A stretch of DNA of 49,351 nucleotides. It comes from Lachnospiraceae bacterium. GTDB taxonomy: Bacteria > Bacillota > Clostridia > Lachnospirales > Lachnospiraceae. The notes under the pieces are model-generated. The model ran no database searches. It was not told where the DNA came from and worked only from the letters and a program-made list of their open reading frames with translations. The stretch spans positions 1-49,351 of the forward strand of contig JAKSRT010000004.1 in assembly GCA_024403485.1 (NCBI GenBank), read 5' to 3'. Below, in pieces: positions 3,870-28,923 of the stretch. A program made the position numbers and the translations under genes. The first letter of the stretch is position 1. Each line of letters starts with the position of its first letter.

Positions 3870-5403
3870 TTACTCCTGATATATGGACGCAGTGAGAAAT
3901 TCAATATCAACCTCTTTTGAAAGCTTTGCTAACGAATCTTTCGTTCTCGAATTGATATCATCACGGTCATCTCTTGAAAAGTGGAATGAATAGCTTACGT
4001 CAAAGTAATCCTTCTCTGTGTTACTCAATCCGTCAAATCCCACCAGCTTAACTTGACCGATTCCTATTTTACTCAATAATGAAAGACATAAAATCAAGGC
4101 GTTATCGATAAGATAGTTTTCTTTTTCAAGAAGAAATTGGTAATTGATTGTATAATCAGGCTTTATATCGAAAGCATTCACATTTGAAGTAATAATAAGT
4201 TTATTTCCAAAAGGTTCGGCAGACAATGAATCTACCATTCTGTTATATCTTTTGGCATTACTGCAGAATACAAAATCACATTCAAATTCTTTGGGCGCAA
4301 AGTTTGTGGAAATCAAAACAGCGTCTAATTTTTCCTGTTCATGCCTTACCAAATCTATATTATCGTATAAGCTTCCGCCGGGTCCGATCAGTATTACATT
4401 TTTCCCTTTTAAAATGCCCTGCAATTCATTAAAACCGCTTCCTTCAAAGGCAAAAGAACTCTGATGCTTTATATATAAGTCCTCAATAATATCCACATTG
4501 TAATGAAGTTTACGTTCCTCCGGTATTCTGTGAAGGATTTCGCTGACATCGCTTACCGTAAGCGTTCTTTTGTCCAAAAGATATTTTACATAGTCAGGAT
4601 GACAATTTTCCATTGCAGAAAGATAAAAATTATATCTATATCCCCAATAATGCTTATTGTAAATAGGCATCAGGTCATTATCCATTACCTCAAGATACTG
4701 ACATATATCATAGTGTTTTCCGTAATACTGGTTCAGGTGAAGAGCGAGCAACTCACTGGTACAGTTTCCCGCACTTTTTCCCATTCCGTAAACAGTCGCA
4801 TCAACAATACGTTCACGGTCTGACGGATGTTCCAAAAACCTGATGGAATTACTGAATGCCTATGATTTCAAAACAATGAGTCAGTTTATTTGAATCAAGC
4901 AAACCGTACGTATCTACAATAGAAAAAGCATATGGCTCAACCTCATTAATCTTCTCTACATAGTCGGACAGTTCTGCATCGGAATAGGCTGTAATTGATA
5001 TAGCCTGAATAAATAACTTGTATCCCTTTTCCTTTATTGCCTTACAGAAAGGCAGAGCATCCTTTATTTTTTCTTTTTTAAAAATAACTCTTATTCCGTC
5101 GATGAATGAGTCTTTGCACTCACTGATATTATCAATGGAGCATGTTCCAAAATCAATCATTGCAACGGGAGTGGCATTTCCCTTTTCAATGCCGGAAAAA
5201 ATCTTATCAAAGCACTCTGTGGAAGGCGCAATGGTACGATTCATATCAAAAGGTCTTCTGTCGTCCAAAAAACCAATCTCAATAAAATCCGTTCCGGCCT
5301 TATCCAGTCGTTTATATATACTTGAAATTACATCATGACCAAAATTCCAATCATTTACGTAACCACCGTCACGCAAAGTACAGTCAAGCATTGAACATTG
5401 CAT
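3870..5403 (-). pseudogene. HMGL-like (DRE-TIM) pyruvate aldolase fused to a Rossmann-like domain, broken by a frameshifting deletion
   Basis: Two frames form one family member. From ATG 5403 (GGAG upstream) the first 184 residues show the DRE-TIM signature LDCTLRDGGYVNDW and continue to CFEII, then stop. The next frame resumes as AFSNSIRFLEHPSDRE and runs to 3870, with the rest of the barrel (ATVYGMGKSAGNC) and a C-terminal Rossmann-like domain beginning GKNVILIGPGGSLYDN. The junction is near 4860. Compared with the family, roughly 20 residues are missing there, including the HxHN metal-binding motif, and the frame is lost. Intact relatives resemble 4-hydroxy-2-oxovalerate aldolase and would join pyruvate to an aldehyde. 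As read, neither fragment can be an active aldolase, though the C-terminal part could be translated from TTG 4835. An assembly error is possible but would have to remove coding sequence. Confidence 0.85.
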
Positions 5404-14306: not shown

Positions 14307-15455
14307 TTACAGCATTTCGTATTCCTTAAGCATTTTGGCGGCTATTTCATTCCAATCAGCGTATGATGAGGCTTCAATGTTTTCTGAGTGAATACGATCC
14401 ATTGACTCTTTATCCTTTCCCGCCCACTCATATATTTTTTCGAGCATCTTCGCTTCGTCATCGCACATAAATACACCTTCAAGATTGCCAAGAATCTCAA
14501 CAGACTCAGCATCACCCGGGGTTGTAATAATCGGAACCCCGTGAGAAAGATAAGCTATAAAGCTCCCCCTTCTTAAGCTCATACCGTCTTCAAACAAAAG
14601 AGTGGCTACGTCACTGTTTCGTATCTCAACGGAGGCTTCTTCGTCAGATACGTAACCGGTTATAACGATGTCATCCCTAAGCCCGAGACTATCGATTCTT
14701 TCACGCACGAATTTATGATATTCAAGAAAATGATTATCGGGATTAACATCCACTTCACCGATTATTTTAAAGATAAACTTATTATCCTTATCATTTTCTT
14801 TTATGCTTTTCCATAGTTCGAGAATTCTTTCTATTCCCTTACCGGGGTAAACTGAACCGAAATAAGAAATCACTGTTTTCCCCGATATATTTTCTTTTTC
14901 TCTGTCAACAACAGTAATGTTGCTTCCGATTAATGTTCTGTGAACACGCTTTCCCGCAATTTTTGTTGCTGCCTGCCTGTCTTCCATAGCCGGAATCCAT
15001 ATACCGTGAGCAAACAAAAGAATAGGTACGATTGCCATTCTTCTTAGTAATCGCGCTTTTGTAAACTCATGGAGTCTAACGTTGCATTCAATATTTGTTT
15101 TATGTTTTCTGTTATATCTTCTTATAAGTATAGGAAGAAAAGTGGCAAGAAATGTCTTGCCATACAAATCCCCGGGATATTCCATATGAACATGAGTGAT
15201 ATTTTCTTTTGAAAGAATCTCATATAAGCATTTAACATTACCGATACGCATTCTCCAATCAGACATAAGTTCATATTTGACTGATGCATTAGCTGAAATA
15301 TTATTCGTAATAATAGGTTTATCTGTTGTAAGAAGAACCACATTATCACCACCGAGATGGTTTACCATTGCGTCCATCAATACCTTTGCACTTGCGGCAA
15401 TGCCTTCCTGATTGTCAGGAAAACTACCGGTTACATATAGCATTTTGTTGTTCAT
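14307..15455 (-). CDS. Glycosyltransferase family 4
   Basis: A 382-residue GT-B glycosyltransferase. The N-terminal domain opens with MLYVTGSFPDNQEGIAAS. The donor domain starts near ISYFGSVYPGKGIERILELW (197-216), followed by GYVSDEEASVEIRNSDV and the phosphate-binding loop LLFEDGMSLRRGSFIAYLSHG. In the EX7E motif the first Glu is kept (289) while the second position is Gly297. It should transfer a sugar from a nucleotide donor to the lipid-linked intermediate at the inner membrane face. The start overlaps the end of the upstream wzy-like gene by 32 bases, and GAGGA lies inside that gene, so the two are translationally linked. Confidence 0.85.
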   Translation of the reverse strand: MNNKMLYVTGSFPDNQEGIAASAKVLMDAMVNHLGGDNVVLLTTDKPIITNNISANASVKYELMSDWRMRIGNVKCLYEILSKENITHVHMEYPGDLYGKTFLATFLPILIRRYNRKHKTNIECNVRLHEFTKARLLRRMAIVPILLFAHGIWIPAMEDRQAATKIAGKRVHRTLIGSNITVVDREKENISGKTVISYFGSVYPGKGIERILELWKSIKENDKDNKFIFKIIGEVDVNPDNHFLEYHKFVRERIDSLGLRDDIVITGYVSDEEASVEIRNSDVATLLFEDGMSLRRGSFIAYLSHGVPIITTPGDAESVEILGNLEGVFMCDDEAKMLEKIYEWAGKDKESMDRIHSENIEASSYADWNEIAAKMLKEYEML

Positions 15456-16695
15456 TAGTTTTATCCTCGTACTGTTCCCACGAACATTCTTTAAAATTCT
15501 TGTTGCCCACTATGCCCAAGATGGCAAACCACATACAAAGCAGCCAACTTACACCATCCATATCTTCTAAAGCAAAATACGCATGCACACAGAATACGCT
15601 TATTATTATCCATGATGTGTACACTGATTTCGCTGTTACAGATACCCTGTACATATCCCTGAGTTTATAAATAAGTGCCACCAGCAGAATCGATGTTCCT
15701 ATTAATCCCGATTTGAACAGAAAGCCCAAATAACTGCTATGACTTCCAAGCGGATACAAGTCCCACGAACTTTTTACTTTTATACCATAACCCAAAAAAG
15801 GATACTCCTTTATCTTTAACCATGTTTCTGAATATATTACCGAACGACTGAATTGACTGCCTTCTCGCATTAGCAATAACTTTTCAACTAAAGTAATACA
15901 TAATTCCAAATTAAATATGCAAAACAATCCGGCAACGACAGCACAAAAAATAACGAAACCCTTTATCTGTTTACGTTTTATTTTTGCAACAATTCCCATA
16001 AGCGGAAGTATCAAAACTGGAACCCAGTATAATAAGTACCCGGTTCTCGACCTGCAAAGCGCTATTGGCAAAAATCCCATAACAGTAAAAACAGCAAGAC
16101 TTAAAAAGCGTCTTTTTGTAAAACGTCTTCGTACATACATGCTTGCCCATGGATACAAAAGAATTTCAAATGCGGTCACTAATGTCGGATAATCCAAAAA
16201 ACCTTCAAAACGAAGTGATGTCCACTCCCAGTAAAACAAATCACTTCCAAATATCGAAATATTTTTCGGATAACCATAGATTTTCGAGTGAAGAATAGCT
16301 ATTACAGCCAGCATAAACATGACAAAGACATTAATAAATGCCGCTTTGGTAAGTTTGTCAAACGAAAAATCATAGTGTAAAAAGTAAAGATACAATATTG
16401 TAGCCACTATCCATAATATGTATAGATAGCCGGTACTGACAATTCGTTCCAAAGCAATATTTTCATCTATCCAAAGTCTTCTGAAAATCGAGATTCCATA
16501 TACTCCAAGATAAATGAAAATCAGCATGGAAAAAGTATCAATTTTTACCTTACGACTATGTGAAATCATTAGTACACAGGCAAAAATATATATGCCCAGC
16601 TGAACCATTTTCGGGATAACCGCTATTGGAAAAAATAAAAAAAACAAACTTTCAAGCAGAAATTCTATACCGATTTTTTTGTTTTTATTCGCCAT
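15424..16695 (-). CDS. O-antigen ligase/polymerase-like membrane protein (Wzy-like)
   Basis: A 423-residue polytopic membrane protein with about ten to twelve hydrophobic spans. The last third carries a large loop with YSETWLKIKEYPFLGYGIK and then GSHSSYLGFLFKSGLIG, the layout of Wzy/WaaL proteins, which join lipid-linked repeat units or ligate a finished glycan. I chose ATG 16695 because AAAGGGG sits just upstream and it leaves a 13-base gap to the previous gene. The longer frame from 16773 would add 26 residues without a membrane-protein character and would overlap that gene. A second Wzy-like domain is in the protein at 20785-23574, so the two may have different roles (polymerase and ligase). 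Confidence 0.82.
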   Translation of the reverse strand: MANKNKKIGIEFLLESLFFLFFPIAVIPKMVQLGIYIFACVLMISHSRKVKIDTFSMLIFIYLGVYGISIFRRLWIDENIALERIVSTGYLYILWIVATILYLYFLHYDFSFDKLTKAAFINVFVMFMLAVIAILHSKIYGYPKNISIFGSDLFYWEWTSLRFEGFLDYPTLVTAFEILLYPWASMYVRRRFTKRRFLSLAVFTVMGFLPIALCRSRTGYLLYWVPVLILPLMGIVAKIKRKQIKGFVIFCAVVAGLFCIFNLELCITLVEKLLLMREGSQFSRSVIYSETWLKIKEYPFLGYGIKVKSSWDLYPLGSHSSYLGFLFKSGLIGTSILLVALIYKLRDMYRVSVTAKSVYTSWIIISVFCVHAYFALEDMDGVSWLLCMWFAILGIVGNKNFKECSWEQYEDKTNEQQNAICNR

Positions 16696-16708
16696 ACAGT
16701 CCCCTTTG

Positions 16709-18214
16709 TTATTCTTTATATACAGGGAAATTGAACTCCTCATTTTTCTCCAAAGTCTCAATAATCTTAACATCCATATATTTGGTGGTCAAGCCGTGGA
16801 AATATGCCGCGCGAGCTATAACCTCATTGCATTTTACAGTGTTTTCCGGCAGTTCAGGATTGTGAGAAATTGGTATATATACCTCGCAGTATGTTTCACC
16901 TTTTTGGTCGGCCTCAACTATCTGATCGATAATATCATTACATATGTCCTTAATGATTGGAGTGTAATATACATCTCTGTAATTTTCCTTGGTCACTACA
17001 AATACAGAACTTAAAACAAATAATGCAATCGGAACACCAATGAAAAACTGCGGAACGTTTTTCATGATGTAACCTGTTGAGACAATAAATATTAGTATTT
17101 CAAAGAATGGAACAGCCCATAAAGCTGCACAGTTTTGAGCGCTGGCCGGTGAGACTCTTGCGCAAAGAAGAAAATCAAATATAAATGTCAGTAATAAGCT
17201 GAACAGGGTTTTCCACTGGTAACTTATAAAGGAATGATCTTTTTCATTTCTCTTTACAGCTCTGTATATCCAAATAACCCATGCAACAAATAAACTGCCA
17301 AATACTAAAAGAAGAAACAGCTTATTCATTCCGAGAATTGAATTGATATATATTGCCCAGGTTTCCTTAATTTTAATTTCGGTTCCACCTGCCACAGCTC
17401 TGTCTCCGCAAGCTTCCAATATCGCAGAGCAAAACCACATCAGAAGAATCAAAAGATAGGTATAATTATCTTTAACATACTCTGATACAAATTTAATGAA
17501 GCCTTTCTTTTCGCTGTTTCTTATCTGTATATATAATTTTTCTACCAAAATCGATCCAACAAAAGCAGCTCCTATTATGCTGTGGAATAGGTTTGAATTA
17601 ATGCATAAATAAATGAATAAAAGAAGGATTCCGTTTGCATATATCTTTTTTCTGTTAAACCATTCAAATTTTTCAATTTCAAAAAGAACAAATACCAGAA
17701 TTGCATTAAATAAGCCAGGAACTACATAGTTAAATATTGCATTTGTATTGCTGGCATAAAACATACTTGAAAAAGAAAACTTCAAATTATAATACGGCAT
17801 AAAAAACATTAGTAGGACAACTATAACCAGACCAGATATTATGCCCGCGGACAAACCATAATGCTTTTTCAGCCATCCGGCCACATACCCCATCAATATG
17901 GTAGTAAACAAACTTAATACAATACCGAAAACCTTAGCCATAGAGCCAATGTAATCACCGGTAATCGGATAAACAATATCAACTGCTATCTCTGCCGAAG
18001 CAGGAAGCAATACCTCCGGAAGAATTTTGGTAGGATTAAAATAATGAGTAGAAGGTATTCCGATCCGATTGTAGGATATATAAACCCAGTCATCCAGTTG
18101 ATAAACATACATAGGATGCACGTTGCAGAAAAATATTATCAGTACTGCAAATACAAAAAGTATGGTCAATAATGAAATAACAAAATCTTTACTCTTAAGT
18201 TTTTCTTTTATCAT
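16709..18214 (-). CDS. GT-C-like polytopic membrane protein, tandem paralogue B
   Basis: A 501-residue protein with about eleven hydrophobic spans and a soluble C-terminal tail (about 415-501). After the first span comes an acidic extracytoplasmic loop HPMYVYQLDDWVYIS (about 33-47). An Asp-Asp pair in the first loop is the hallmark of GT-C glycosyltransferases that use polyprenyl-phosphate sugars. It is clearly homologous along its length to the preceding gene: shared features are NRIGIP, NPTKILPE, YPITGDYI, NAIFNYVVPGLFN, the KENYRDVY stretch and a closing FNFPVYKE-type tail. AGGAG 6 bases upstream overlaps the end of the paralogue, with a 3-base gap. Function as a glycosyltransferase is inference; no named family was recognised with certainty. 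Confidence 0.72.
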   Translation of the reverse strand: MIKEKLKSKDFVISLLTILFVFAVLIIFFCNVHPMYVYQLDDWVYISYNRIGIPSTHYFNPTKILPEVLLPASAEIAVDIVYPITGDYIGSMAKVFGIVLSLFTTILMGYVAGWLKKHYGLSAGIISGLVIVVLLMFFMPYYNLKFSFSSMFYASNTNAIFNYVVPGLFNAILVFVLFEIEKFEWFNRKKIYANGILLLFIYLCINSNLFHSIIGAAFVGSILVEKLYIQIRNSEKKGFIKFVSEYVKDNYTYLLILLMWFCSAILEACGDRAVAGGTEIKIKETWAIYINSILGMNKLFLLLVFGSLFVAWVIWIYRAVKRNEKDHSFISYQWKTLFSLLLTFIFDFLLCARVSPASAQNCAALWAVPFFEILIFIVSTGYIMKNVPQFFIGVPIALFVLSSVFVVTKENYRDVYYTPIIKDICNDIIDQIVEADQKGETYCEVYIPISHNPELPENTVKCNEVIARAAYFHGLTTKYMDVKIIETLEKNEEFNFPVYKE

Positions 18215-18217
18215 TTA

Positions 18218-19729
18218 CTACTCCTCAGGATATCCGAACTCCGCATTTTTTTCTTCGCTTGGTACAAGAATTACTTCCATTTCCGAATTGATAATGCCAT
18301 GTTGAAACAGGGTTTTGTATATTCTCTCACCCCCATAAGACAAAACAATAGGCCATTCCGGATTAATATGTTTTGGTACATATACCTCAACATATGTATC
18401 TCCGTTCTTTTCGGCTTCAATTATCTGCGAAACAATATCATCATCTATCCTTTTAATCTTTGAAGGTGTATACGTATCTTTATAATTATTTTTTGTTATC
18501 ACGAAAACAGAAATAAGCACAAATGCCAAAAGAGGGAATGTCATACCTACCCATTCAAATGAGCTGACAATGTATCCGATGCATAAAAACATAATAATCA
18601 CCAGATAAAAAACGATTCCCCAGTTTACCGAAGAGTTTCGTATGTATCCGGGAGCCAACTTTGAACTTACCAGCACCAGATAAACGGTAACGAGAATGAG
18701 TGAAAATACATTTCTCAAAAGAAGAACCACATATTCCCGATCCTTTTCTTGCACATTTTTTTGAACAACACGTCGAAACAAATAAGTCGCCAACCCCGCA
18801 GTCACACATGACAAAAGCATCAGCCAAAATATTTTATTGATTTCCTTTAGCCCTGTTATCAGGTTTCTTATGGTTTCACCCACCGAGCCATAGGATGTAT
18901 CGATTGCCCAACCGGCCCGTCTGCCGTTTCCCTCCAAATAAAGTGCTAAGAACCAGCACATCAAAATTCCCAAATATACTGCATTTTCCTTAATGAATCT
19001 CAATATTACTTTGTGTAACTTTTCTTTTTTTAGGAGTTTTAAAAGAAGACTTATCAATCTAAAAAACAGCAGTGACCCCACAAAACTCATAAAAATAATG
19101 CTGCTTGTAAGGCTTGAAAAAATACATAAATAAACCAAAAGAACTACTATGGAATTCTTTACAACATGTTTTGAGTCAAACCAGTTCATCTCCTCGTCAT
19201 TCCATATTATAAAAAGAAGAATTCCGTTAAATACATTAGGAACAATGTAATTAAACAATGCATTTACTCCACCACCATAAAACATATGCGAGTACATATA
19301 TTCCTGAGTATAGTATGGAGTAAACATCGTAATAGTTAAGAAAATCAAGAGAAAACAATAGTTAATCAAAGATAATGAAAATTTGTTCTTTATTATTATT
19401 GAAAAAAATACTAAAAAAACAGTAAAAAGAACACTCACAAAAATTCCCGTTGCAAATGCAATCGACTGAATGTAATCGCCTGTAAAAGGATAAATTACCG
19501 TTGCACCAATCTCACCGATAAGCGGCAACAAGCATTCGGGTAATACTTTGGTCGGGTTCCATGCATTAGGCATAGGAATGCCCAAACGGTTATTAGATAT
19601 ATATGTCCAATCATCTGTATCATAAATATACAAAGGATGTGCCCAAAGAAAAAAAACGGCCATACATATAAGTAATGCGATAAATGCCATGCGATATACA
19701 GTTTTTTCCTTTAGCGGCCTGTTTTCCAT
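18218..19729 (-). CDS. GT-C-like polytopic membrane protein, tandem paralogue A
   Basis: A 503-residue protein with about eleven hydrophobic spans and a soluble tail of some 90 residues (EVYVPKHINPEWP and following). The first loop reads HPLYIYDTDDWTYIS, with the acidic pair expected in GT-C enzymes. It matches the following gene over the whole length, most strongly in the first 100 residues and the tail, so the pair arose by duplication. It lies 9 bases after the Alg13-like gene, with AGGA 7 bases before the ATG. Possible roles are transfer of a side-branch sugar outside the membrane or a polymerase/ligase-like function. The sequence does not decide between them. Confidence 0.72.
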   Translation of the reverse strand: MENRPLKEKTVYRMAFIALLICMAVFFLWAHPLYIYDTDDWTYISNNRLGIPMPNAWNPTKVLPECLLPLIGEIGATVIYPFTGDYIQSIAFATGIFVSVLFTVFLVFFSIIIKNKFSLSLINYCFLLIFLTITMFTPYYTQEYMYSHMFYGGGVNALFNYIVPNVFNGILLFIIWNDEEMNWFDSKHVVKNSIVVLLVYLCIFSSLTSSIIFMSFVGSLLFFRLISLLLKLLKKEKLHKVILRFIKENAVYLGILMCWFLALYLEGNGRRAGWAIDTSYGSVGETIRNLITGLKEINKIFWLMLLSCVTAGLATYLFRRVVQKNVQEKDREYVVLLLRNVFSLILVTVYLVLVSSKLAPGYIRNSSVNWGIVFYLVIIMFLCIGYIVSSFEWVGMTFPLLAFVLISVFVITKNNYKDTYTPSKIKRIDDDIVSQIIEAEKNGDTYVEVYVPKHINPEWPIVLSYGGERIYKTLFQHGIINSEMEVILVPSEEKNAEFGYPEE

Positions 19730-19738
19730 TACAAAATC

Positions 19739-20239
19739 CTATTCACCAATCAATTTTGATACAATCTCTTCAAATCTTGAATTAAAGGAAGCATTGTTGC
19801 TTTCAAATTTTCCGGTTCTAAGCGAAACGATTTCTGCATAATTTTGAATCGTTTCTTTAAGTTTGGAAATATCTTCCACCAATATAATATTCCCGTATTT
19901 TTCTTCCACTGCGGTGCAAAACTGTACTTGATGATCATTCACATGTTCATTAAACGCAGCTTTTCTCGGAACAACTATAGGAATTTTTCCAACCTGAAGG
20001 GCCGCGATAAAACTGGCCGGGCCTCCATGAGTGATTATAATATCCGCTTGCGATACTAATTTGCTCATTTCTTCATATCCGAACAGTTTCTGCCATTTAC
20101 AGGACTTTGGTACATAATCACTAAAGCCACTCTGAACAACAACTTCATCACTAATCTCACCCGAAGTTTTCAATTCATCTATGCACTCTATTAATCTGTT
20201 AAACTGCTGCTCGTGGGTTCCCACCGTAACAAAAATCAT
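19739..20239 (-). CDS. Alg13/PssE-type catalytic subunit of a split glycosyltransferase
   Basis: A 166-residue protein equal to the C-terminal half of a GT28-like enzyme. MIFVTVGTHEQQFNRLI opens it. HGG at 71-73 and NEHVNDHQ at about 97-104 form the UDP-sugar pocket, as in Alg13, PssE and the Cps14G group. These work only with a membrane-bound Alg14-like partner, which is encoded immediately upstream (24-base gap). Together they add a sugar to the polyprenyl-diphosphate-linked first sugar on the cytoplasmic side. GAGG lies 7 bases before the start. Donor specificity (Gal, GlcNAc or glucuronic acid in known members) is not readable. Confidence 0.88.
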   Translation of the reverse strand: MIFVTVGTHEQQFNRLIECIDELKTSGEISDEVVVQSGFSDYVPKSCKWQKLFGYEEMSKLVSQADIIITHGGPASFIAALQVGKIPIVVPRKAAFNEHVNDHQVQFCTAVEEKYGNIILVEDISKLKETIQNYAEIVSLRTGKFESNNASFNSRFEEIVSKLIGE

Positions 20240-20263: not shown

Positions 20264-20725
20264 TTAAAAAATGCTTCCAAGATTTTCGGCCTTCTTATAA
20301 ACCTTTTTCATTTCATCCCATTGAACAATAAATTTATCCGTTACCGGATATACCATCTTTCCGGTCATGGTAGGACGGTCAATGCGGTCAAAAACCTCAA
20401 TATATACGGTTTTAGCACCATATAGCTTTCCGACGTAAAAGAAAGGAACAGCCACTGCGGCTCCTGATGAAATAATAATATCCGGTCTCTCTTTCTTTAT
20501 CAGTTTAAACGCCAGCTTAGTATTAATAATAAGTGCTTTCAGGCTTCTGTTAGTGGGAAAATAACAAGGATACATCACTTCATCCTTAAGGACACTTCTT
20601 GCATCTTCTTTATCAAAAGTAACCCAGAATCTTTCCTTGTTTTCCCAAAAAGGTTTAAGCATATACAAATGAGTCAAATGTCCGCCCGATGAACCCACCA
20701 GGCAGACTTTAATTTTTTTATCCAT
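20264..20725 (-). CDS. Alg14/PssD-type membrane subunit of a split glycosyltransferase
   Basis: A 153-residue protein from ATG 20725. The family start is MDKKIKVCLVGSSGGHL, with the GSSGGHL acceptor/partner-binding motif at 11-17. A hydrophobic stretch near 85-97 (IIISSGAAVAVPFFYVG) and the segment RPTMTGKMVYPVTDKFIVQW are typical of Alg14, PssD and the Cps14F group. It recruits the Alg13-like catalytic partner to the membrane. An upstream in-frame ATG at 20764 would add 13 residues without family support. The GGA spacing before 20725 is only fair, so the start is not certain. Confidence 0.85.
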   Translation of the reverse strand: MDKKIKVCLVGSSGGHLTHLYMLKPFWENKERFWVTFDKEDARSVLKDEVMYPCYFPTNRSLKALIINTKLAFKLIKKERPDIIISSGAAVAVPFFYVGKLYGAKTVYIEVFDRIDRPTMTGKMVYPVTDKFIVQWDEMKKVYKKAENLGSIF

Positions 20726-20784
20726 TATAGTATTCCGCATGAGCCAACCATAGTAACTTCCCATCGCTAACTCACATTTTATAA

Positions 20785-23574
20785 TTATTTTGATCCCTTA
20801 CGGCTAAGAACCACACCAATGGTTTTAATAAGAATTTTTATATCTTTTCTTACAGACCATCCATCAATATACTGCAGGTCTAGCTTAACGACCTCATCAA
20901 AATCTTCGATATCACTTCTGCCGCTTACTTGCCAAAGTCCAGTAAGCCCGGGTGTAAAGCTCATTCTTCTTCTGTAGTACGAACTGTACTGCTCATATTC
21001 CTCCACTGTGGGTGGTCTTGTTCCTACAAGGCTCATGTCTCCGATTAATACATTCCAGAACTGAGGAAGTTCATCAATACTTGTCTTTCTTATGAATTTT
21101 CCGACCTTTGTAATTCTGGGATCGTCATCCATTTTAAACATGGGACCGGACATTTTATTTTTTTCCATAAGCTCCTTCTTGCGTTCTTCGGCATCTTCAT
21201 ACATGGAACGGAATTTGTACATTTTGAAGCGTCTTCCGTTTCTACCGATTCTTGTCTGTGAAAAGAACACAGGTCCCTCTGAATCAAGCTTAATGGCCAA
21301 CGCAACGAAAGGAGTCACAACAATAAGAATAATTATTCCTACCAATCCACCTACAATATCCATCACACGCTTAATAATTCGCCTTCTGTAATCAATCATA
21401 TTCATGGAATATGTTACCACAGGCATTTCGGCAAAGCGCTCCATTGAGCTATACGGGGCATCCATTGAACGCACATCAACACAATTGTGAACTACAACAC
21501 CCATTGACAAAAATTCTTTGATTTCTGCTTCTATTTTCTCATCATTAGAATCTGCACAGTCAAAAATTACCGCGTCAAGAGTAGATTGTCTGCCTACCTC
21601 GGCAGCACTTTCAAGCTCAGCTATTATCGGAACTCCGCATACACTTTCACCCACCATATCACAATCGGTCAGAACAAGACCTATTATCTTATAGCTCCAC
21701 TCGCCGCCACGTTTTATATTATTAATAATCTTTTCTACTCTCTCTCTCGTGGACACAATCATTATTTTATCGCTTCCACCGGTGGACCAGTAATATGCTT
21801 TCATAACAGATCTGAAAATGCATCTTAGTACGAAAGTTAATATGCCGGTTATTACAATAAAGTATCCAAGCATCAGTCTTGAAAACTTCATTTCCATATC
21901 AAATATATAAATATATGCGCTTATGCCGATAAACAGAGTGAGTATATAGCGTACAACCTTAACTAACTCATCAAAAATACCACGTTTAAAAAAGTTTTTA
22001 TATCCGGCTGAAATCAAATCATAAATAATGCTACCTGCCAAACACAGCATCAAAATTTCAAACCATTTTCCTCTTTCACGTATAGCATTTCCTTCTGTCC
22101 AAAATCTTAAATAACATGCCGCAACATAGGCAAATGTTGCCGAAAACAGGTTAATCACTATAAATCCGTATGTTTCAATCGTCTGATTCTTTTTATTGTA
22201 GGAATTCATTTCCTCATCAGTCTCCTCAGATTCACCTATTTCTTCAAATAAAACTTTACTAATGTATATAAGCGGAACATTCCATAATACACTTAGTGGA
22301 AATTGTTCCAAAAATCCGTATACCGCCATCGCAGTCAATGCAAGAGCTCCAAATGTGTTCTTTTTCCGAACGCAGTGCCAAATTGCTGCCGAGTATGCCA
22401 CCAAAAAGACTACCGTTATTATCCAACCGTAATTATATGCAGAATGAAAGTAAACACTGTCAAAAGTCTCTCTTATCTTATTCCCGATAAGCCCTATTCC
22501 TGTTCTGTCGTAAAATATTCTTGTATGGTGAAAACGCCCTGTAAAACTTCTGTGAATATTCGTTAATACTCTTGTTCTGATTTTTTGACTGTTTAAAGCA
22601 AGCCACGAAAACCATATGGTGCCTCCAATCATTGCAGGAGCTACCATATCACAGGCAAAGCCATATATTTTCTTATATTTTCCTGCGGTAAATCTTAAAA
22701 ATAGCACAATAAAAACCAGTGCACATACAGCAATTACAATCGATTTAAGTATCAGCTGAAAAAAAGCCACGCCGTCAATATCACTCTGTCGATTCTTTTC
22801 CATGTAGAAATAAGTTTTCGATAGTAACGCCGTAAGAATATATGTTACTATCATTAGCACATAAGGCGTAAAGGAACAAAACCTTAAAAACTCAACTCCG
22901 ATTTTTGTTTTCCTAAGAATGTAATGCAATGCAAGTAAGAAACAAAAACCAAGCCATATAGCAAAGCCGGTTCGACAATACAAATACTTATACGCGACTG
23001 CAAAAAAAGTTGTAAAAAGGACATACCAATACCATTTTGCTTTCTCTCTGTATACTATGAAAAACAACATCGCTATGACTATCATATTTCCGTACAACAT
23101 GTTTGCACTGTAAAAACCATAGCATTTTACTTCGGTGAGTCCGACATATATTCCCTCTTTAGGTATCTCGATTATCTCATTTTCAACTACACCGGTAATA
23201 GCAAGAAGCACTCTAAAAACCGTTAATGGTAATTTTGTCCACAACGACAGCTTGAGCGTTTTTGTAATGTCCACATTTTTAGCTCCTATAACTGCCATAT
23301 ATGTAACAATGAGAGTTCTTTCACCATTGATTAGAAAATTGACTATCAGCAGAACCCCAATCAAAACCATCCAGGTGATCTCTTTTAGGCTGTAGTCGGT
23401 AATAACCACTTTTACACCCAAAAGGAGAGTTACCACCGCAAAACAGATTAGGTATATTTTATCTTCAGAGGTGATACCAAAAGACATCAATCCACCCATC
23501 ACAATAATAAAGGGAAGATAGAACCACTCCTGATAATCACCCAAACGCTTTCTAAAATCCAATAGCTTGTTCAT
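20785..23574 (-). CDS. Fusion of a Wzy-like polymerase with a WbaP-like polyprenyl phosphoglycosyl transferase
   Basis: A 929-residue protein in one open frame. Residues 1-445 are polytopic and Wzy-like: about ten hydrophobic spans and a late loop with SFTGRFHH at 343-350 and FDSVYFHSAYNYGW, as in repeat-unit polymerases. After an acidic linker (446-455), residues 456-929 are a full-length WbaP/EpsE-type enzyme: four hydrophobic spans, a nucleotide-fold domain (about 600-720) and the catalytic module with KFRSM at 787-791, DPRITKVG at 818-825 and the Asp834-Glu835 dyad in IDELPQ. The second half would transfer a sugar phosphate to undecaprenyl phosphate; the first would polymerise finished units. 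Met456 (22209) could be an internal start, but the nearest good GAGGAG lies too far upstream. GGAGAG precedes the main start. Confidence 0.88.
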   Translation of the reverse strand: MNKLLDFRKRLGDYQEWFYLPFIIVMGGLMSFGITSEDKIYLICFAVVTLLLGVKVVITDYSLKEITWMVLIGVLLIVNFLINGERTLIVTYMAVIGAKNVDITKTLKLSLWTKLPLTVFRVLLAITGVVENEIIEIPKEGIYVGLTEVKCYGFYSANMLYGNMIVIAMLFFIVYREKAKWYWYVLFTTFFAVAYKYLYCRTGFAIWLGFCFLLALHYILRKTKIGVEFLRFCSFTPYVLMIVTYILTALLSKTYFYMEKNRQSDIDGVAFFQLILKSIVIAVCALVFIVLFLRFTAGKYKKIYGFACDMVAPAMIGGTIWFSWLALNSQKIRTRVLTNIHRSFTGRFHHTRIFYDRTGIGLIGNKIRETFDSVYFHSAYNYGWIITVVFLVAYSAAIWHCVRKKNTFGALALTAMAVYGFLEQFPLSVLWNVPLIYISKVLFEEIGESEETDEEMNSYNKKNQTIETYGFIVINLFSATFAYVAACYLRFWTEGNAIRERGKWFEILMLCLAGSIIYDLISAGYKNFFKRGIFDELVKVVRYILTLFIGISAYIYIFDMEMKFSRLMLGYFIVITGILTFVLRCIFRSVMKAYYWSTGGSDKIMIVSTRERVEKIINNIKRGGEWSYKIIGLVLTDCDMVGESVCGVPIIAELESAAEVGRQSTLDAVIFDCADSNDEKIEAEIKEFLSMGVVVHNCVDVRSMDAPYSSMERFAEMPVVTYSMNMIDYRRRIIKRVMDIVGGLVGIIILIVVTPFVALAIKLDSEGPVFFSQTRIGRNGRRFKMYKFRSMYEDAEERKKELMEKNKMSGPMFKMDDDPRITKVGKFIRKTSIDELPQFWNVLIGDMSLVGTRPPTVEEYEQYSSYYRRRMSFTPGLTGLWQVSGRSDIEDFDEVVKLDLQYIDGWSVRKDIKILIKTIGVVLSRKGSK

Positions 23575-23577
23575 TAA

Positions 23578-25113
23578 TTACTCTCCGTGCGATGCTTTGT
23601 CACCAAATCTACCTTTAATTAATCCAATATAATAACGCATTTCAGCGCTTCTTGCATAAAAGGCAAAGAAAACAATCTGGGATACCAAAACAGCCGCAAT
23701 TCCACCTGCAAAAAATCGTCCCCAGGGATTATAGTCGGCCAGAGTCATCTTAATTCCGCCTATGCCTAATATAGCTATGGAAAGAACCAAAAGGTGTGAA
23801 ACCGTTCCCCAAAGATATTTTGCAAAAGACATATCAAACAAGGGGCCGCACACATATTTAGGGTAACCATATAAGTATACCACAAGCGAGCTTACTATTG
23901 TACCGACAAATACACCTGCAACACCCAGATACATCGCAAGGACAATAGATACCGCCAGATTCAGCATCGCTTCAATCACAGGGACAAATCTGTCCTCATG
24001 GAAGATTCCCGCAGCTTCCTTAAAGGTGATTACGCTGGTTCTTACACCCTGAAGATAAAAATTATATACAAGTACAATCAGCACCGTCTCCGAAAATAGA
24101 AAACGTTCTCCCATCCAGAGTTCGATAAGCGGCTGCATAACGGCATACATACCAACCGCAGCAGTTCCAAAAAGCCAAAAATTTAAAAATTCGACCTTTT
24201 TAAACACATCTTTGTTTCTTTCCTTGCTGCTGTCCAACAAGAAGTTTCCCACGCTGTTTGAAAGAGTTTCAAACCCCTTATTAAACAAAGCAGAAATACC
24301 TGCAATCACCAAATAATAATTGGCATACAGGTTCATGGCTGTGATTCCCACAACACCCGTCAGCACAAGGCTGTCACTTCCGGTTACAATAAGTTTTCCT
24401 ATTTTATGAAGAAAAAGACCTTTAACCTTTTTAACAATGTCGTTCCGCACTTCACTGTCAAGTGGCTTAACGTTTTTCTCCGCAGTATAAGGATATTTAA
24501 CCCTAATATAAAGAGAAATAAGAATATTTGGAACAATCTTTCCCATACTCTTTATTATCAAGAATGCAATATAACTGTGAAAAGCAAGCAATACATAAAT
24601 CTGAAGCGCATTCTGCACCATATATACACAAAAATATATGGTGTCGGGAATGAAATTTACCATGTCTGCGTAAAGCATGGACTTTTTGTATCCAAGAAAA
24701 TAAGAGCATACACAGTCAAATATAAAAAGAACAAAAATCAGGTAGATATTTTCCTTAATCTTGGCTCCATCGGTAAGCAAAGGCAAAAAGAATGCAACCA
24801 CAACTCCTATGAGCAGCACAACCCCAGAAATGACCATATAGCTGTACTTATAAAACTTAAGAAGTGATTTGATCTTCTCAGAGTCCCTCTCTGCCATCGG
24901 ACGGTACATATGATAAATAATAGCCGTTCCGATTCCCAAATCTGTCATAGACATCATACTTATGATGCTTGAAAAAAGACCGTTTATTCCGTTGTAATCA
25001 TCTCCAAGTGACAAAACAAGAACTTTTTGCACCAGGAATGCCGTAACCAGCGGAATGGCATATGTAAAAAGGGCCACCGCCACATTCAGCATAGAACGAC
25101 GGGTTCTGTTCAT
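23578..25113 (-). CDS. Wzx-type flippase / polysaccharide export membrane protein (MOP superfamily)
   Basis: A 511-residue protein with about fourteen hydrophobic spans. The N-terminal pattern (FLVQKVLVLSLGDDYNGINGLFSSIISMMSMTDLGIG when read along residues 25-65) matches the oligosaccharide flippases of Firmicutes. It would flip undecaprenyl-diphosphate repeat units outward for the polymerase. I chose ATG 25113 because AGGAG lies 10 bases upstream; the longer frame begins with a TTG that is itself part of that ribosome binding site. It sits 3 bases before the polymerase-phosphoglycosyl transferase fusion gene, which fits a Wzx/Wzy pathway. No key residue is missing as far as can be seen. Confidence 0.88.
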   Translation of the reverse strand: MNRTRRSMLNVAVALFTYAIPLVTAFLVQKVLVLSLGDDYNGINGLFSSIISMMSMTDLGIGTAIIYHMYRPMAERDSEKIKSLLKFYKYSYMVISGVVLLIGVVVAFFLPLLTDGAKIKENIYLIFVLFIFDCVCSYFLGYKKSMLYADMVNFIPDTIYFCVYMVQNALQIYVLLAFHSYIAFLIIKSMGKIVPNILISLYIRVKYPYTAEKNVKPLDSEVRNDIVKKVKGLFLHKIGKLIVTGSDSLVLTGVVGITAMNLYANYYLVIAGISALFNKGFETLSNSVGNFLLDSSKERNKDVFKKVEFLNFWLFGTAAVGMYAVMQPLIELWMGERFLFSETVLIVLVYNFYLQGVRTSVITFKEAAGIFHEDRFVPVIEAMLNLAVSIVLAMYLGVAGVFVGTIVSSLVVYLYGYPKYVCGPLFDMSFAKYLWGTVSHLLVLSIAILGIGGIKMTLADYNPWGRFFAGGIAAVLVSQIVFFAFYARSAEMRYYIGLIKGRFGDKASHGE

Positions 25114-25131
25114 CAGGAAACATCTCCTCAA

Positions 25132-26241
25132 TTATGCTTCAAACAATTTTACAAATTCTTCTGTAATAACCGAAAGATTATACTGTTCAAATGTCTCTGT
25201 CGCTTCAGGCTGTTTTGAAGCAATTTCAATCTTTTCAATCCACTCTTTTACATCGTAAGGATCATCGACATAAACAGCCTTGCCGCCGGTAACTTCCATA
25301 AGACAGCTCTTTTTGGTCATTACCACGTTTTTCCCCTTACGCATTGCTTCTATAGGGGGCATTCCAAAGCCTTCAAAAATACTGGGAAAAAGAAAGAGTT
25401 TACAGTTTTCGTACAAACTGTCTCTCTCGGCATCCTTAACAAATCCGGTACATATTACATATTCGCTGATACCAAGTTCATCAACCAAAGCTTCAAGTTC
25501 CTGCTGTCTGCCTCCTACACCACTTAATACAAGGGGCTTTAGCAGGGGACTCTCTTCTTTTTTCAATTCTGCCAACACTTTTAAGACAGTATTCAAATTT
25601 TTGTGCGGCAAAACAGAGCTTACACAATAATAGTATTCTCCCTTTGTTATTTTAAGTCTTCCCGCAATGGAATCAAAATCCGCAACCTCTGCATCCGAAA
25701 TGATAGGGTCGTATATAGTCAGTATCCTGTCTTTCACGTAAGGATATCTTGTTATCAAATCCTCTTTACAATAATCGGATATGGTCACTACTTTCGAAGA
25801 AGTTTTGCATGCATATTTCCATTTATATTTAAGAAACAGCTTCTTAACAAAAGAAAAATACTCCGGGTAATGAAGTGCCTGAACATCGTGAATAACGGTT
25901 ATATACTTCATTTTTTTAGAAAAACTCAGTGGTTTACTGTAAACAGGGATAAACATTTTGTCTATCTTTTCGTCTTTTGCATATCTGTCGATATTAAGGT
26001 TTTCCCACAATATACGCTTCCACTGAACCGCACAGTTTACCGGACATTCTTTTATGGTTATGTTATTCTGTTTTAGCTTCGTATATTCCGTAAAAGTAGA
26101 CGCATTATCTTTAGCAGCAAAAAGAATATATTCATTTTTATCATCATAGGTTCCAAAGCCCGTAAGCAAATTACGCGTATATGACTCTGTTCCGCCACAT
26201 TTGCCGGGGCGCACCCATAAAAGATCGATTCCTATTTTCAT
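25132..26241 (-). CDS. Glycosyltransferase family 4 (retaining, GT-B)
   Basis: A 369-residue GT4 enzyme. The glycine-rich acceptor loop GKCGGTESYTRNLL is at 13-26, HDV at 118-120, CVSSVLPHKNLNTVL at about 206-220, and the EX7E donor motif is intact with Glu290 and Glu298 in EGFGMPPIE. It should add a sugar from a nucleotide donor to the lipid-linked repeat unit in the cytoplasm. It lies 28 bases after another glycosyltransferase gene and 18 bases before wzx. The ribosome binding site is weak (GGGTGTG). The donor sugar is unknown. Confidence 0.9.
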   Translation of the reverse strand: MKIGIDLLWVRPGKCGGTESYTRNLLTGFGTYDDKNEYILFAAKDNASTFTEYTKLKQNNITIKECPVNCAVQWKRILWENLNIDRYAKDEKIDKMFIPVYSKPLSFSKKMKYITVIHDVQALHYPEYFSFVKKLFLKYKWKYACKTSSKVVTISDYCKEDLITRYPYVKDRILTIYDPIISDAEVADFDSIAGRLKITKGEYYYCVSSVLPHKNLNTVLKVLAELKKEESPLLKPLVLSGVGGRQQELEALVDELGISEYVICTGFVKDAERDSLYENCKLFLFPSIFEGFGMPPIEAMRKGKNVVMTKKSCLMEVTGGKAVYVDDPYDVKEWIEKIEIASKQPEATETFEQYNLSVITEEFVKLFEA

Positions 26242-26269: not shown

Positions 26270-27271
26270 TTACTGATTCAAAAGCGTTAATACCCACTCG
26301 CGAAGTGAATATTTATTATAGATTTTTTCCGAAAGCTCGTGGTATTCCCTGTCAAAAAATGACACATCGACTTTCCCGTTATTACGGTCAAAAATGCAAA
26401 CGTTGTTATCATCGTAAAAATCGTAATTTACAACATCTTTATTAGTTGTCATCAGTTTCTTTTTTAATCCAAGGATTTCAATTGTTCTCATTGTAAGTCC
26501 GGTTTGCGTTGAACTTTCAACATCAAGGACACAGCTCGCCTCGCTGTATATTCTGTACACTTCGCTAAGCGGCAAAAAGCCAAACTGAACATCCTTCTTT
26601 TTAACATGACTAAAATATGGATTAAAGAGTTTGTTGTAATAGAAGACAAAAATGTGGGGCATATAAATATAATAGTAAAATTTAAGACCCTTTTCCCTGC
26701 ATTGCTCGTCTACCGCCTTAATGATGGATACTCTGTCCTCGTGTCCCGTCCCTATGAAAGCAATATCATATTTCTTTTCTGCTTTTTCATAATCTTCAGG
26801 CAGTACCTTTTCACAATAATAAAGGGGCAGAAATTTCAACCTATCCTTGTATTGCAGGTAATCTTTTCGATCAAAGGTCCAAACCTCATCATAAGAGTCC
26901 CACTTTTTTTCTATCCCTTTATTATTAATAATGCTGTCCCACATATACAAAACAAGTTTTGCGTTGGGGAATTTATTTCTTAATTTATCAAGTACGGATA
27001 TGGGAGTATATTCTCCCCGTACCGAAAGAACATAATCTATATCACCATCTATTGCATCTATCTTTTTCTCATAATGGGAACATAACGGGCCGTTAATGTA
27101 GGGCTTAAACTTAAGTCTGCCTAAGACCTTATCCCAAAATCCATCATTGGGTTTATCGGTTATTGTTATGCAGGTCGCCCCCAAAGACTTGATTTCCTCC
27201 TCAATTTGAAGATAGTATGCCCTGCTCGCTATTAATATTATTCTTTTTCCCGATAAAGGTTTATTTTCCAC
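26270..27271 (-). CDS. Putative GT-B glycosyltransferase (CgeB/LPS-biosynthesis-like)
   Basis: A 333-residue soluble protein that starts at GTG 27271. The N-terminal half is Rossmann-like (KRIILIASRAYYLQIEEEIK). The C-terminal half has IAFIGTGHEDR at about 170-180 and a donor-pocket-like segment, SASCVLDVESSTQTGLTMR, followed by TIEILGLKKKLMTTN. The pattern is that of the poorly characterised CgeB-like glycosyltransferases found in capsule loci. It lies between a sugar reductase and a GT4 enzyme, so it probably adds the second or third sugar of the repeat. The donor is unknown; the family call rests on fold-level features only. Confidence 0.68.
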   Translation of the reverse strand: MENKPLSGKRIILIASRAYYLQIEEEIKSLGATCITITDKPNDGFWDKVLGRLKFKPYINGPLCSHYEKKIDAIDGDIDYVLSVRGEYTPISVLDKLRNKFPNAKLVLYMWDSIINNKGIEKKWDSYDEVWTFDRKDYLQYKDRLKFLPLYYCEKVLPEDYEKAEKKYDIAFIGTGHEDRVSIIKAVDEQCREKGLKFYYYIYMPHIFVFYYNKLFNPYFSHVKKKDVQFGFLPLSEVYRIYSEASCVLDVESSTQTGLTMRTIEILGLKKKLMTTNKDVVNYDFYDDNNVCIFDRNNGKVDVSFFDREYHELSEKIYNKYSLREWVLTLLNQ

Positions 27272-27310: not shown

Positions 27311-28204
27311 TTACTTATATATTCTTCTGATGCTCTCTTTCATATCATACTTCGCATATTCGCCAAAAGAATATTTACTCAGTGACTGTTCTATACTTAA
27401 ATTTCCAAAAGCCTTATCAGCCATGTTTCCTATCTTCCCCGGCACTTTTGCGGCCAGCCTCACAAACGGATTCAACATCCCCCACAGTCGGATTTTTTTC
27501 CCGTTTGAAGCAGCAATCTCTTTAACCATCTCTGCTGTCGAAACAAATTCCTTATTCTGAGGATAAAAGTATCCGCCCTCACCGGATTCTCCAAGGATTC
27601 TCAAAAACTCCGTCAGGTTTTCTATATATAACATGCTTCTCTCATTGGATATTGAAGGAAATACAGGAAGCTTCATCGCTATTTTTGTCAAAAGCGGAAA
27701 ATTTCCTTTACTCAAATACCCATAAATCATAGGAGCTCTTACAATCGCCACATGAAAGCTTTCATCATTAAGCTCCATCAGTTGCATTTCGGCCTGAAGT
27801 TTACTGTCGCCGTAGAAGTTCGACGGTTCCGGATTTGTATCTGCTGAAATTCTCTTTGTTTTTCCGACAGGTGCACTGTCTCCAAAAATGATAACGCTAC
27901 TCATATATACGAATTGAGAAACACCGTCCGCTTTAGCCTTTTTCGCAGTCTCCACAGCCAATTTACAATTTATGTCATAATATTCCTGTTGGCCTTCTTT
28001 GGTAAGCGTTGAAATATCCACATGAGCTTTTCCTGCCATATGAAATACGGTATCCGTGCCGGCAAACGAAGCCTGTTTCCAATTTTCACCGCGAAGCGAT
28101 ATACAATCGACTTCGTACATTCCTTTAAAATCGGGTCCCATAAGATAATCCTTAAGATTCAACCCTATATAACTTTTCTCCCCTGTTATCAAGCATTTTT
28201 TCAT
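27311..28204 (-). CDS. NAD-dependent epimerase/reductase (extended SDR), nucleotide-sugar modifying
   Basis: A 297-residue extended SDR. The nucleotide loop is TGEKSYIG at 7-14, a form in which the middle glycine of TGxxGxxG is serine; this GxxSYIG variant is familiar in Firmicute capsule loci. FHMAGKAHVD, the YMSS segment and the catalytic YGDSK (Tyr/Lys) follow. Together with the PglF/CapD-like 4,6-dehydratase and the PglC-like transferase just upstream, it probably reduces or epimerises a UDP-4-keto-6-deoxy-HexNAc to a QuiNAc- or FucNAc-type sugar, which the transferase then loads on the lipid (inference from neighbours). AGG lies a few bases before the ATG. Confidence 0.8.
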   Translation of the reverse strand: MKKCLITGEKSYIGLNLKDYLMGPDFKGMYEVDCISLRGENWKQASFAGTDTVFHMAGKAHVDISTLTKEGQQEYYDINCKLAVETAKKAKADGVSQFVYMSSVIIFGDSAPVGKTKRISADTNPEPSNFYGDSKLQAEMQLMELNDESFHVAIVRAPMIYGYLSKGNFPLLTKIAMKLPVFPSISNERSMLYIENLTEFLRILGESGEGGYFYPQNKEFVSTAEMVKEIAASNGKKIRLWGMLNPFVRLAAKVPGKIGNMADKAFGNLSIEQSLSKYSFGEYAKYDMKESIRRIYK

Positions 28205-28290: not shown

Positions 28291-28923
28291 TTACGATTTT
28301 TTTTCGGATTCACCCGACTCTTTTGATTCTTTAAGCGCACCGGTTCCACCCTCGACAACACCATCTCCCCTGAATACGCTTATAAAAGTTCCAAAAATAC
28401 ATCGTATATCCATCAAAGGGCCCATTTTTTTAACATACTCGCCATCAAAAGCAGCCTTTACCGGTATCTCAAGCTCATCTCTCCCGTTAATCTGAGCCCA
28501 TCCCGTAAGACCTGGCTTAATATTATTTGCACCGTATTTATCACGCTCCGCAATCAAATCATCCTGATTCCATAAAGCCGGGCGGGGGCCGACAATTGCC
28601 ATATCGCCTTTTAAAATATTAATAATCTGCGGAAGTTCATCAAGACTGCTCTTTCTTAAAAATCGTCCAACCTTTGTTATATACTGCTCAGGATTAGCCA
28701 GAAGATGCGTTGGCGTATCTTTGGGCGTATCAATTCGCATTGATCGAAATTTGAGCAGTTTAAAATACGACTTATTGATTCCGATTCTCTTTTGCGAAAA
28801 GAAAACAGGTCCTCTGGAATCAATCTTTACCGCCAAAACCAAAATCAAAAAAATAGGAGAAAGAACAATAAGTCCAATTAAAGCCAACATTCTGTCTAAT
28901 ATATCTTTAATACGAACATACAT
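28291..28923 (-). CDS. Small monotopic polyprenyl phosphoglycosyl transferase (PglC-like)
   Basis: A 210-residue enzyme, the minimal form of the family. One re-entrant N-terminal hydrophobic helix covers about residues 10-32, followed by KIDSRGPVFFSQKRIG, KFRSM at about 58-62, and the catalytic pair Asp95-Glu96 in LDELPQ. GPRPALWNQ and KPGLTGWAQINGRDEL complete the pattern. It transfers a 6-deoxy-HexNAc-1-phosphate or similar to undecaprenyl phosphate, starting glycan assembly at the inner membrane face. It follows the 4,6-dehydratase by 20 bases with AGGAG in place. The operon has a second such catalytic domain in the protein at 20785-23574. Confidence 0.92.
   Translation of the reverse strand: MYVRIKDILDRMLALIGLIVLSPIFLILVLAVKIDSRGPVFFSQKRIGINKSYFKLLKFRSMRIDTPKDTPTHLLANPEQYITKVGRFLRKSSLDELPQIINILKGDMAIVGPRPALWNQDDLIAERDKYGANNIKPGLTGWAQINGRDELEIPVKAAFDGEYVKKMGPLMDIRCIFGTFISVFRGDGVVEGGTGALKESKESGESEKKS

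Follow-up and report, generated by a model that had tools for sequence, protein, structure and literature searches.

The enzymes that start and those that lengthen surface sugar chains are normally separate membrane proteins. Whether the first (cytoplasmic) and the last (outer-face) step of glycan synthesis by the Wzx/Wzy pathway communicate with each other is a question touched by a gene of a Lachnospiraceae bacterium, in which a Wzy/WaaL-like polymerase half and a large phosphoglycosyl transferase (PGT) half share a single reading frame. We characterized this gene and its surroundings on the 49,351 nt long stretch of DNA analysed here, hereafter called the window (Table 1). The frame runs on the minus strand from 23574 down to 20785 and starts with ATG. 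Its 929 codons contain no internal stop, as an earlier note on this DNA had stated. The remaining two forward frames across this gene contain 85 and 76 stops with a longest open run of at most 74 codons; since they are full of stops, the length of the fused frame is not due to chance. We consider it quite likely that the polymerase-PGT join is a real fused gene. The best explanation, to which we assign a probability of about 0.6, is that a wzy-like polymerase gene and the large-PGT gene after it, a pair that recurs side by side, are truly fused in frame within a polysaccharide operon of a Lachnospiraceae bacterium.

Table 1. Positions of the fused gene, its parts and the neighbouring genes in the window.
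Feature	Position	Strand	Remark
Second, small PGT of the operon	28291..28923	-	profile match
NAD-dependent epimerase	27311..28204	-	profile match
WaaS/CpsH-family glycosyltransferase	26270..27271	-	GT2 at corresponding place in relatives
GT4 glycosyltransferase	25132..26241	-	Pfam match
Putative flippase	23578..25131	-	3 nt upstream of the fusion; weak WZX_like match, far under cut-off
Fused ORF, Wzy/WaaL-like polymerase half and large PGT half	20785..23574	-	929 aa
Wzy-like polymerase half, residues 1-455	22210..23574	-	polytopic; WaaL-like predicted fold
Hydrophobic insertion, about 80 residues, 254-333	22576..22815	-	absent from the five closest relatives
GAGGAG, Shine-Dalgarno-like	22222..22227	-	12 nt upstream of the Met456 ATG, read from sequence
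ATGA at the join	22206..22209	-	ATG is Met456, TGA out of frame
Large monotopic PGT half, residues 456-929	20788..22209	-	four hydropathy peaks, PF13727, PF02397
Asp834-Glu835	21070..21075	-	aligned with the pair in solved WbaP chains
PssD/Cps14F-type glycosyltransferase subunit	20264..20764	-	profile match; next gene after the fusion
PssE/Cps14G-type glycosyltransferase subunit	19739..20239	-	114 bits, just below the 120-bit cut-off
Separate PF04932 (Wzy_C/O-antigen ligase) protein of the cluster	15424..16773	-	Pfam match

Judged from its family matches, the C-terminal half is a large monotopic PGT with predicted phosphosugar transfer activity. Residues 479-928 matched TIGR03025 with 411.4 bits (NCBIfam cut-off 295.55), and within this range PF13727 covered residues 533-691 and PF02397 residues 735-923. 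The latter match spans positions 1-178 of the 179 profile positions (E 3.3e-70), i.e. the whole catalytic domain. The four hydropathy peaks lie within residues 471-587, in agreement with an N-terminal four-helix membrane bundle. A Pfam scan found no GT25 domain in this half. The WcaJ and WbaP models scored below their cut-offs, such that the assignment stops at TIGR03025 and does not include the first sugar. In the PDB, solved WbaP chains matched residues 528-928 or part of that range. Asp834-Glu835, presumably the catalytic dyad, as well as the motif around it align with WbaP. Chains of diacetylbacillosaminyl-1-phosphate transferase, which we take to be PglC, matched the catalytic part. The previously claimed complete large PGT with its Asp-Glu pair is thus confirmed.

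The N-terminal half had neither a Pfam nor an NCBIfam match. In particular, PF04932 (Wzy_C) was not found in residues 1-455, matched two relatives of this half at E values of 0.0038 and 0.088 only, and the comparison of the half with the window's own PF04932 protein by hhalign gave a probability of 4.6. Because the PF04932 match is absent we use the label Wzy-like and do not call it a member of that family. Searching PDB sequences with a profile of the polymerase returned nothing usable. The predicted fold of the half is WaaL-like: its best structural match, from Foldseek plus a second aligner, was a WaaL ligase; with Foldseek on its own, no match reached E ≤ 0.001. The half is polytopic, and the model supports a Wzy-type N-terminal half with predicted polymerase activity, in line with the earlier assignment as Wzy-like. 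Glu65, Arg347 and Glu423 were invariant in an alignment of the half with 20 of 33 frames among those listed (alignment A1; 13 fused, longer, short or repeated frames were excluded). Arg201 was invariant only in the close set (alignment A2). The insertion has partly low pLDDT and two hydropathy peaks. For the full-length chain, whose structure prediction had been suggested as a check, AlphaFold provided a poor model (pLDDT 60.9, pTM 0.47) that carries no geometry information.

The fusion is part of a tight minus-strand operon with gaps of 3 nt to the upstream and 20 nt to the downstream gene. The order is dehydratase, small PGT, epimerase, two glycosyltransferases, putative flippase, fusion, and PssD- and PssE-type subunits, followed by two related large proteins and then by the PF04932 protein and more. 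Profile matches of dehydratase, small PGT, epimerase, PssD and PssE extend across nearly the whole length. The two large hydrophobic proteins (16709-18214 and 18218-19729) are adjacent and 36% identical over 504 residues, with no Pfam matches. A small and a large PGT within one operon also occur in three relatives (L126, L127 and G011). Elsewhere on the contig an HMGL aldolase-like gene (3870-5403) seems interrupted, being divided into 3870-4835 and 4849-5403 with frames of 321 and 184 aa; a single frame of 542 aa takes this place in G006 and G011, two relatives from the genus.

To see the unfused state we compared the operon with L126 (JAMPFT010000010.1) and L127 (CANQBS010000001.1, uncultured Acetatifactor). 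Both share the order small PGT, epimerase, glycosyltransferase, GT4, flippase, polymerase and large PGT, and in both polymerase and large PGT are separate genes, which agrees with the statement that these are normally two proteins. Relative to the window, L126 and L127 show protein identities of, respectively, 73% and 73% (small PGT), 48% and 52% (epimerase), 57% and 53% (GT4), 61% and 57% (flippase), 44% and 38% (polymerase), and 54% and 52% (large PGT). The sole differing position is the CpsH-type glycosyltransferase of the window, where L126 and L127 have a GT2. At the place of the join, the polymerase stop of L126 (7111-7113) lies past the PGT start (7100), giving a 14-nt overlap in different frames, and in L127 62 nt separate the two genes. 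Close relatives with two genes, combined with an indel unique to this assembly, had been named as what would speak against the fusion. Relatives with two genes were found and fulfil half of this; with identities of 38-54%, however, they belong to other species and cannot serve to tell if the fused gene is confined to this assembly.

The PGT tree groups the window with L126 and L127 (support 0.92), and the polymerase tree places it in a clade (0.98) with L126, L127, L128 and G039, with G011 outside (1.00); the order within this clade is weak (0.15 and 0.41 at two nodes). Since both trees place the window with L126 and L127, the halves were probably inherited together, with the closest partner weakly supported by the polymerase tree. 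Among the other distinct members of the polymerase family that were retrieved, 14 of 73 are followed immediately by a same-strand large-PGT frame and 59 are not; all 14 are among the 47 others that score at least 250 bits. Including the window the count is 15 of 74, where L122, one gene in two pieces, is counted twice. Seven clusters (L062, L103-L106, L108 and L109) showed no second PGT within the fetched stretches of 8-17 kb. The gene neighbourhoods support a derivation of the fusion from adjacent genes, which overlap in one relative. We also considered that the fusion merely links the end of the gene set of one polymer to the start of another. This idea is weakened by the genes beyond the large PGT of L126, which by eye are not glycan-like, as well as by the clusters that show one PGT only.

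A search for the same fusion in other Lachnospiraceae had been suggested. The fusion was not seen among 18 genomes of the genus, 397 of the family, 392 of the order and 381 of the class (overlapping samples, assessed partly among the matches listed), nor among 28 genomes of the genus of G039. In the family search every match listed except the window's own had an open frame of 408-588. A PF04932 search of 368 family genomes found no polymerase-PGT fusion among the matches listed, and none of the four listed frames longer than 700 codons (L136-L139) carries a PGT. Long frames from the family and order searches were inspected except for the weak hit G470; in the class sample frames of 605-770 codons in G804, G813, G888 and G999 were left out of inspection. 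The weak hits L098-L100 had no match to the polymerase family. A search of genome contigs with P0001 found nothing, and with alignment A2 seven loci were obtained, none of them fused. Viral contigs gave no match, and of 1036 matching plasmid records none covers 80% of the query. In the literature covered, which includes few subscription papers, we found no Wzy-PGT fusion.

Other natural fusions were seen in related proteins. Relatives of the polymerase half carry a C-terminal GT4 domain (L053, L055, L056 and L058), WecG/TagA plus GT4 (L052, 1210 aa), a GT10 fucosyltransferase (L093) or a C-terminal part that matches no Pfam family (L057). In L095, L096 and L097 (frames of 1085-1381 codons) a polymerase-like N-terminal part is followed by a very long tail with many short repeats; L095, the one scanned, had no Pfam match. 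A PF04932 polymerase and a Wzx-type flippase (PF01943) share a single frame of about 900 codons in L136:2785-5466 (G095) and L137:2668-5412 (G235), i.e. in two genera; a brief literature search found no Wzx-Wzy fusion. In the same genus as the window, L051:485-3031 (G003) combines small PGT, epimerase and GT2 in one 848-aa protein, and in G011 and L126 these three kinds of protein are encoded by individual adjoining genes. By analogy, the glycosyltransferase and flippase fusions show that such joins are tolerated. They also suggest a cytoplasmic C-terminus of the polymerase: the fused GT4, WecG/TagA and GT10 enzymes use cytoplasmic nucleotide sugars as substrates, and for this reason the polymerase C-terminus is expected on the cytoplasmic side, where the PGT also has to be.

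The join itself reads ATGA (22209-22206) with the TGA out of frame, as described before. Out-of-frame stops crowd the join and ATGA is one among several, such that the motif alone is silent on the type of an ancestral overlap. As proof of a former 4-nt overlap it was dropped: other out-of-frame stops are equally near, and the nearest relative of the same order overlaps differently. Of the proposed fusion of overlapping genes by a small indel, the origin from adjacent genes is supported, with an overlap in one relative (L126), and the indel is a possible event. Because out-of-frame stops are so dense, any sequence change would be confined to a few codons around the join. The polymerase tail ahead of Met456 is no longer than in relatives and not garbled far upstream. 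Met456 is the position at which the PGTs of relatives begin, and the GAGGAG upstream of it has a counterpart in the AAGGAG that precedes the ATG of the separate PGT of L126 at a similar distance (13 nt). A separate PGT started at Met456 may be made alongside the fused chain. Translation from this start, with the separate PGT standing beside or largely replacing the fused chain, appears rather doubtful to us: the 12-nt spacing exceeds the Shine-Dalgarno-like spacings recognisable by eye before the other operon genes, and with no stop between the halves to halt them, ribosomes on the polymerase part would run through the Met456 site.

A different origin of the join would be an assembly or sequence error, or a frame change private to the strain, that joins genes which are separate in the living population. 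The fusion was seen in one instance, on a single contig of an incomplete MAG (73.3% complete), and its closest relatives have separate genes, overlapping in one case. The interrupted gene at 3870-5403 lies on the same contig and, like the single instance, counts against our best explanation. Further points against it are the second PGT of the operon, the 59 family members that lack a large PGT directly downstream, and the polymerase half's lack of a Pfam, NCBIfam or Foldseek-alone match. However, the tail length and the narrow confinement of any change at the join, the near-complete profile matches of the five operon genes named above, and the 90-100% completeness of the genomes that contain the other fusions of the polymerase family all argue against an error, which we therefore judge unlikely.

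Given a real fusion, it may be neutral and connect neighbours of different steps, or even of different polymers, without functional coupling. With two PGTs in the operon, along with another PF04932 polymerase/ligase, the substrate link is uncertain, and the fusion partners in the polymerase family are many. Against neutrality, polymerase and large PGT are neighbours in numerous clusters, and for seven of these no second PGT was found in the fetched stretch. We give neutrality somewhat less than even odds. The N-terminal half might also be a ligase that hands completed glycans over to an acceptor. A WaaL ligase is the best structural match of the half, and Wzy and WaaL belong to one fold class, for which reason the fold cannot tell polymerase from ligase. 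Yet in the fetched stretch of L126 the homologue of the half is the sole member of the polymerase family found, and a polymerase would be required there for a Wzx/Wzy pathway; to our knowledge no LPS core acceptor is to be expected in Lachnospiraceae. A ligase thus seems quite improbable.

For the preferred fusion of polymerase and PGT the following working can be proposed. The membrane-spanning polymerase half would end at the cytoplasmic side, from where a short acidic tail of about 12 residues would lead to the PGT half, with its helical bundle and catalytic domain at the cytoplasmic face. There the PGT half would place a sugar-1-phosphate on undecaprenyl phosphate, PssD/PssE and glycosyltransferases would extend the lipid-linked sugar, a flippase would turn the unit over, and the polymerase half would join units outside. 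With a second, small PGT in the operon, the units joined by the polymerase half may be started by an enzyme other than the linked PGT. The large PGTs that have been studied, WbaP and EpsZ, function as dimers, on account of which a dimeric fusion would carry two polymerases on one PGT dimer, with fixed stoichiometry and with chain start and growth at the same place. Production of the full chain and any coupling of initiation to polymerisation by the fusion are part of this proposal. A covalent machine in which two Wzy-like polymerases are tethered to a PGT dimer, such that units are started only where chains grow, is a tentative proposal that we hold to be possible but not likely.

The fusion shares with the large monotopic PGTs (WbaP, EpsE, EpsZ; TIGR03025) the helical bundle, PF13727, PF02397 and the Asp-Glu pair, but in the fusion a polymerase precedes the whole large PGT in one chain. 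From the separate wzy-pgt pairs of Lachnospiraceae (L126, L127, L062, L104 and others), which have the same kinds of protein in the same order, it differs by being one chain instead of two abutting or overlapping frames that encode two proteins. Known bifunctional monoPGTs (Bi-PGTs) carry sugar-modifying enzymes or glycosyltransferases. As in the Bi-PGTs of PMC10942596, a monoPGT catalytic domain and a further functional domain are combined in one chain, the function of the added half being a prediction; a fused polymerase is not named in the accessible text of that source. WadA, an O-antigen ligase (GT121) fused to a GT25, likewise has a membrane enzyme of WaaL type and a globular sugar transferase within one chain, yet its partner adds the last core sugar whereas the partner in the fusion is the initiating PGT (PMC10920833, accessible part). 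PGTs with extra domains (PMC10942596) and a ligase-glycosyltransferase fusion (PMC10920833) are already published; no polymerase-PGT fusion was found in the literature covered.

Ideas on how the two ends of the pathway communicate have been put forward. A feedback from WaaL to WbaP was proposed within a hypothetical complex that is still to be shown (PMC4863624, accessible part), and the accessible texts support a control of a large PGT via dimer formation (PMC12802240) and term WbaP a homodimer (PMC10942596). A natural polymerase-PGT link bears directly on both WaaL-WbaP signalling and control through the PGT dimer. The single chain of a WaaL-like polymerase and a WbaP-like PGT, with the recurrent fusions in related proteins, provides a direct handle on the coupling of the steps. 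If the covalent machine were true, it would be the extreme of a habit of Lachnospiraceae to fuse polymerases to flippase, PGT and glycosyltransferases, and the Wzx/Wzy pathway would be one membrane complex.
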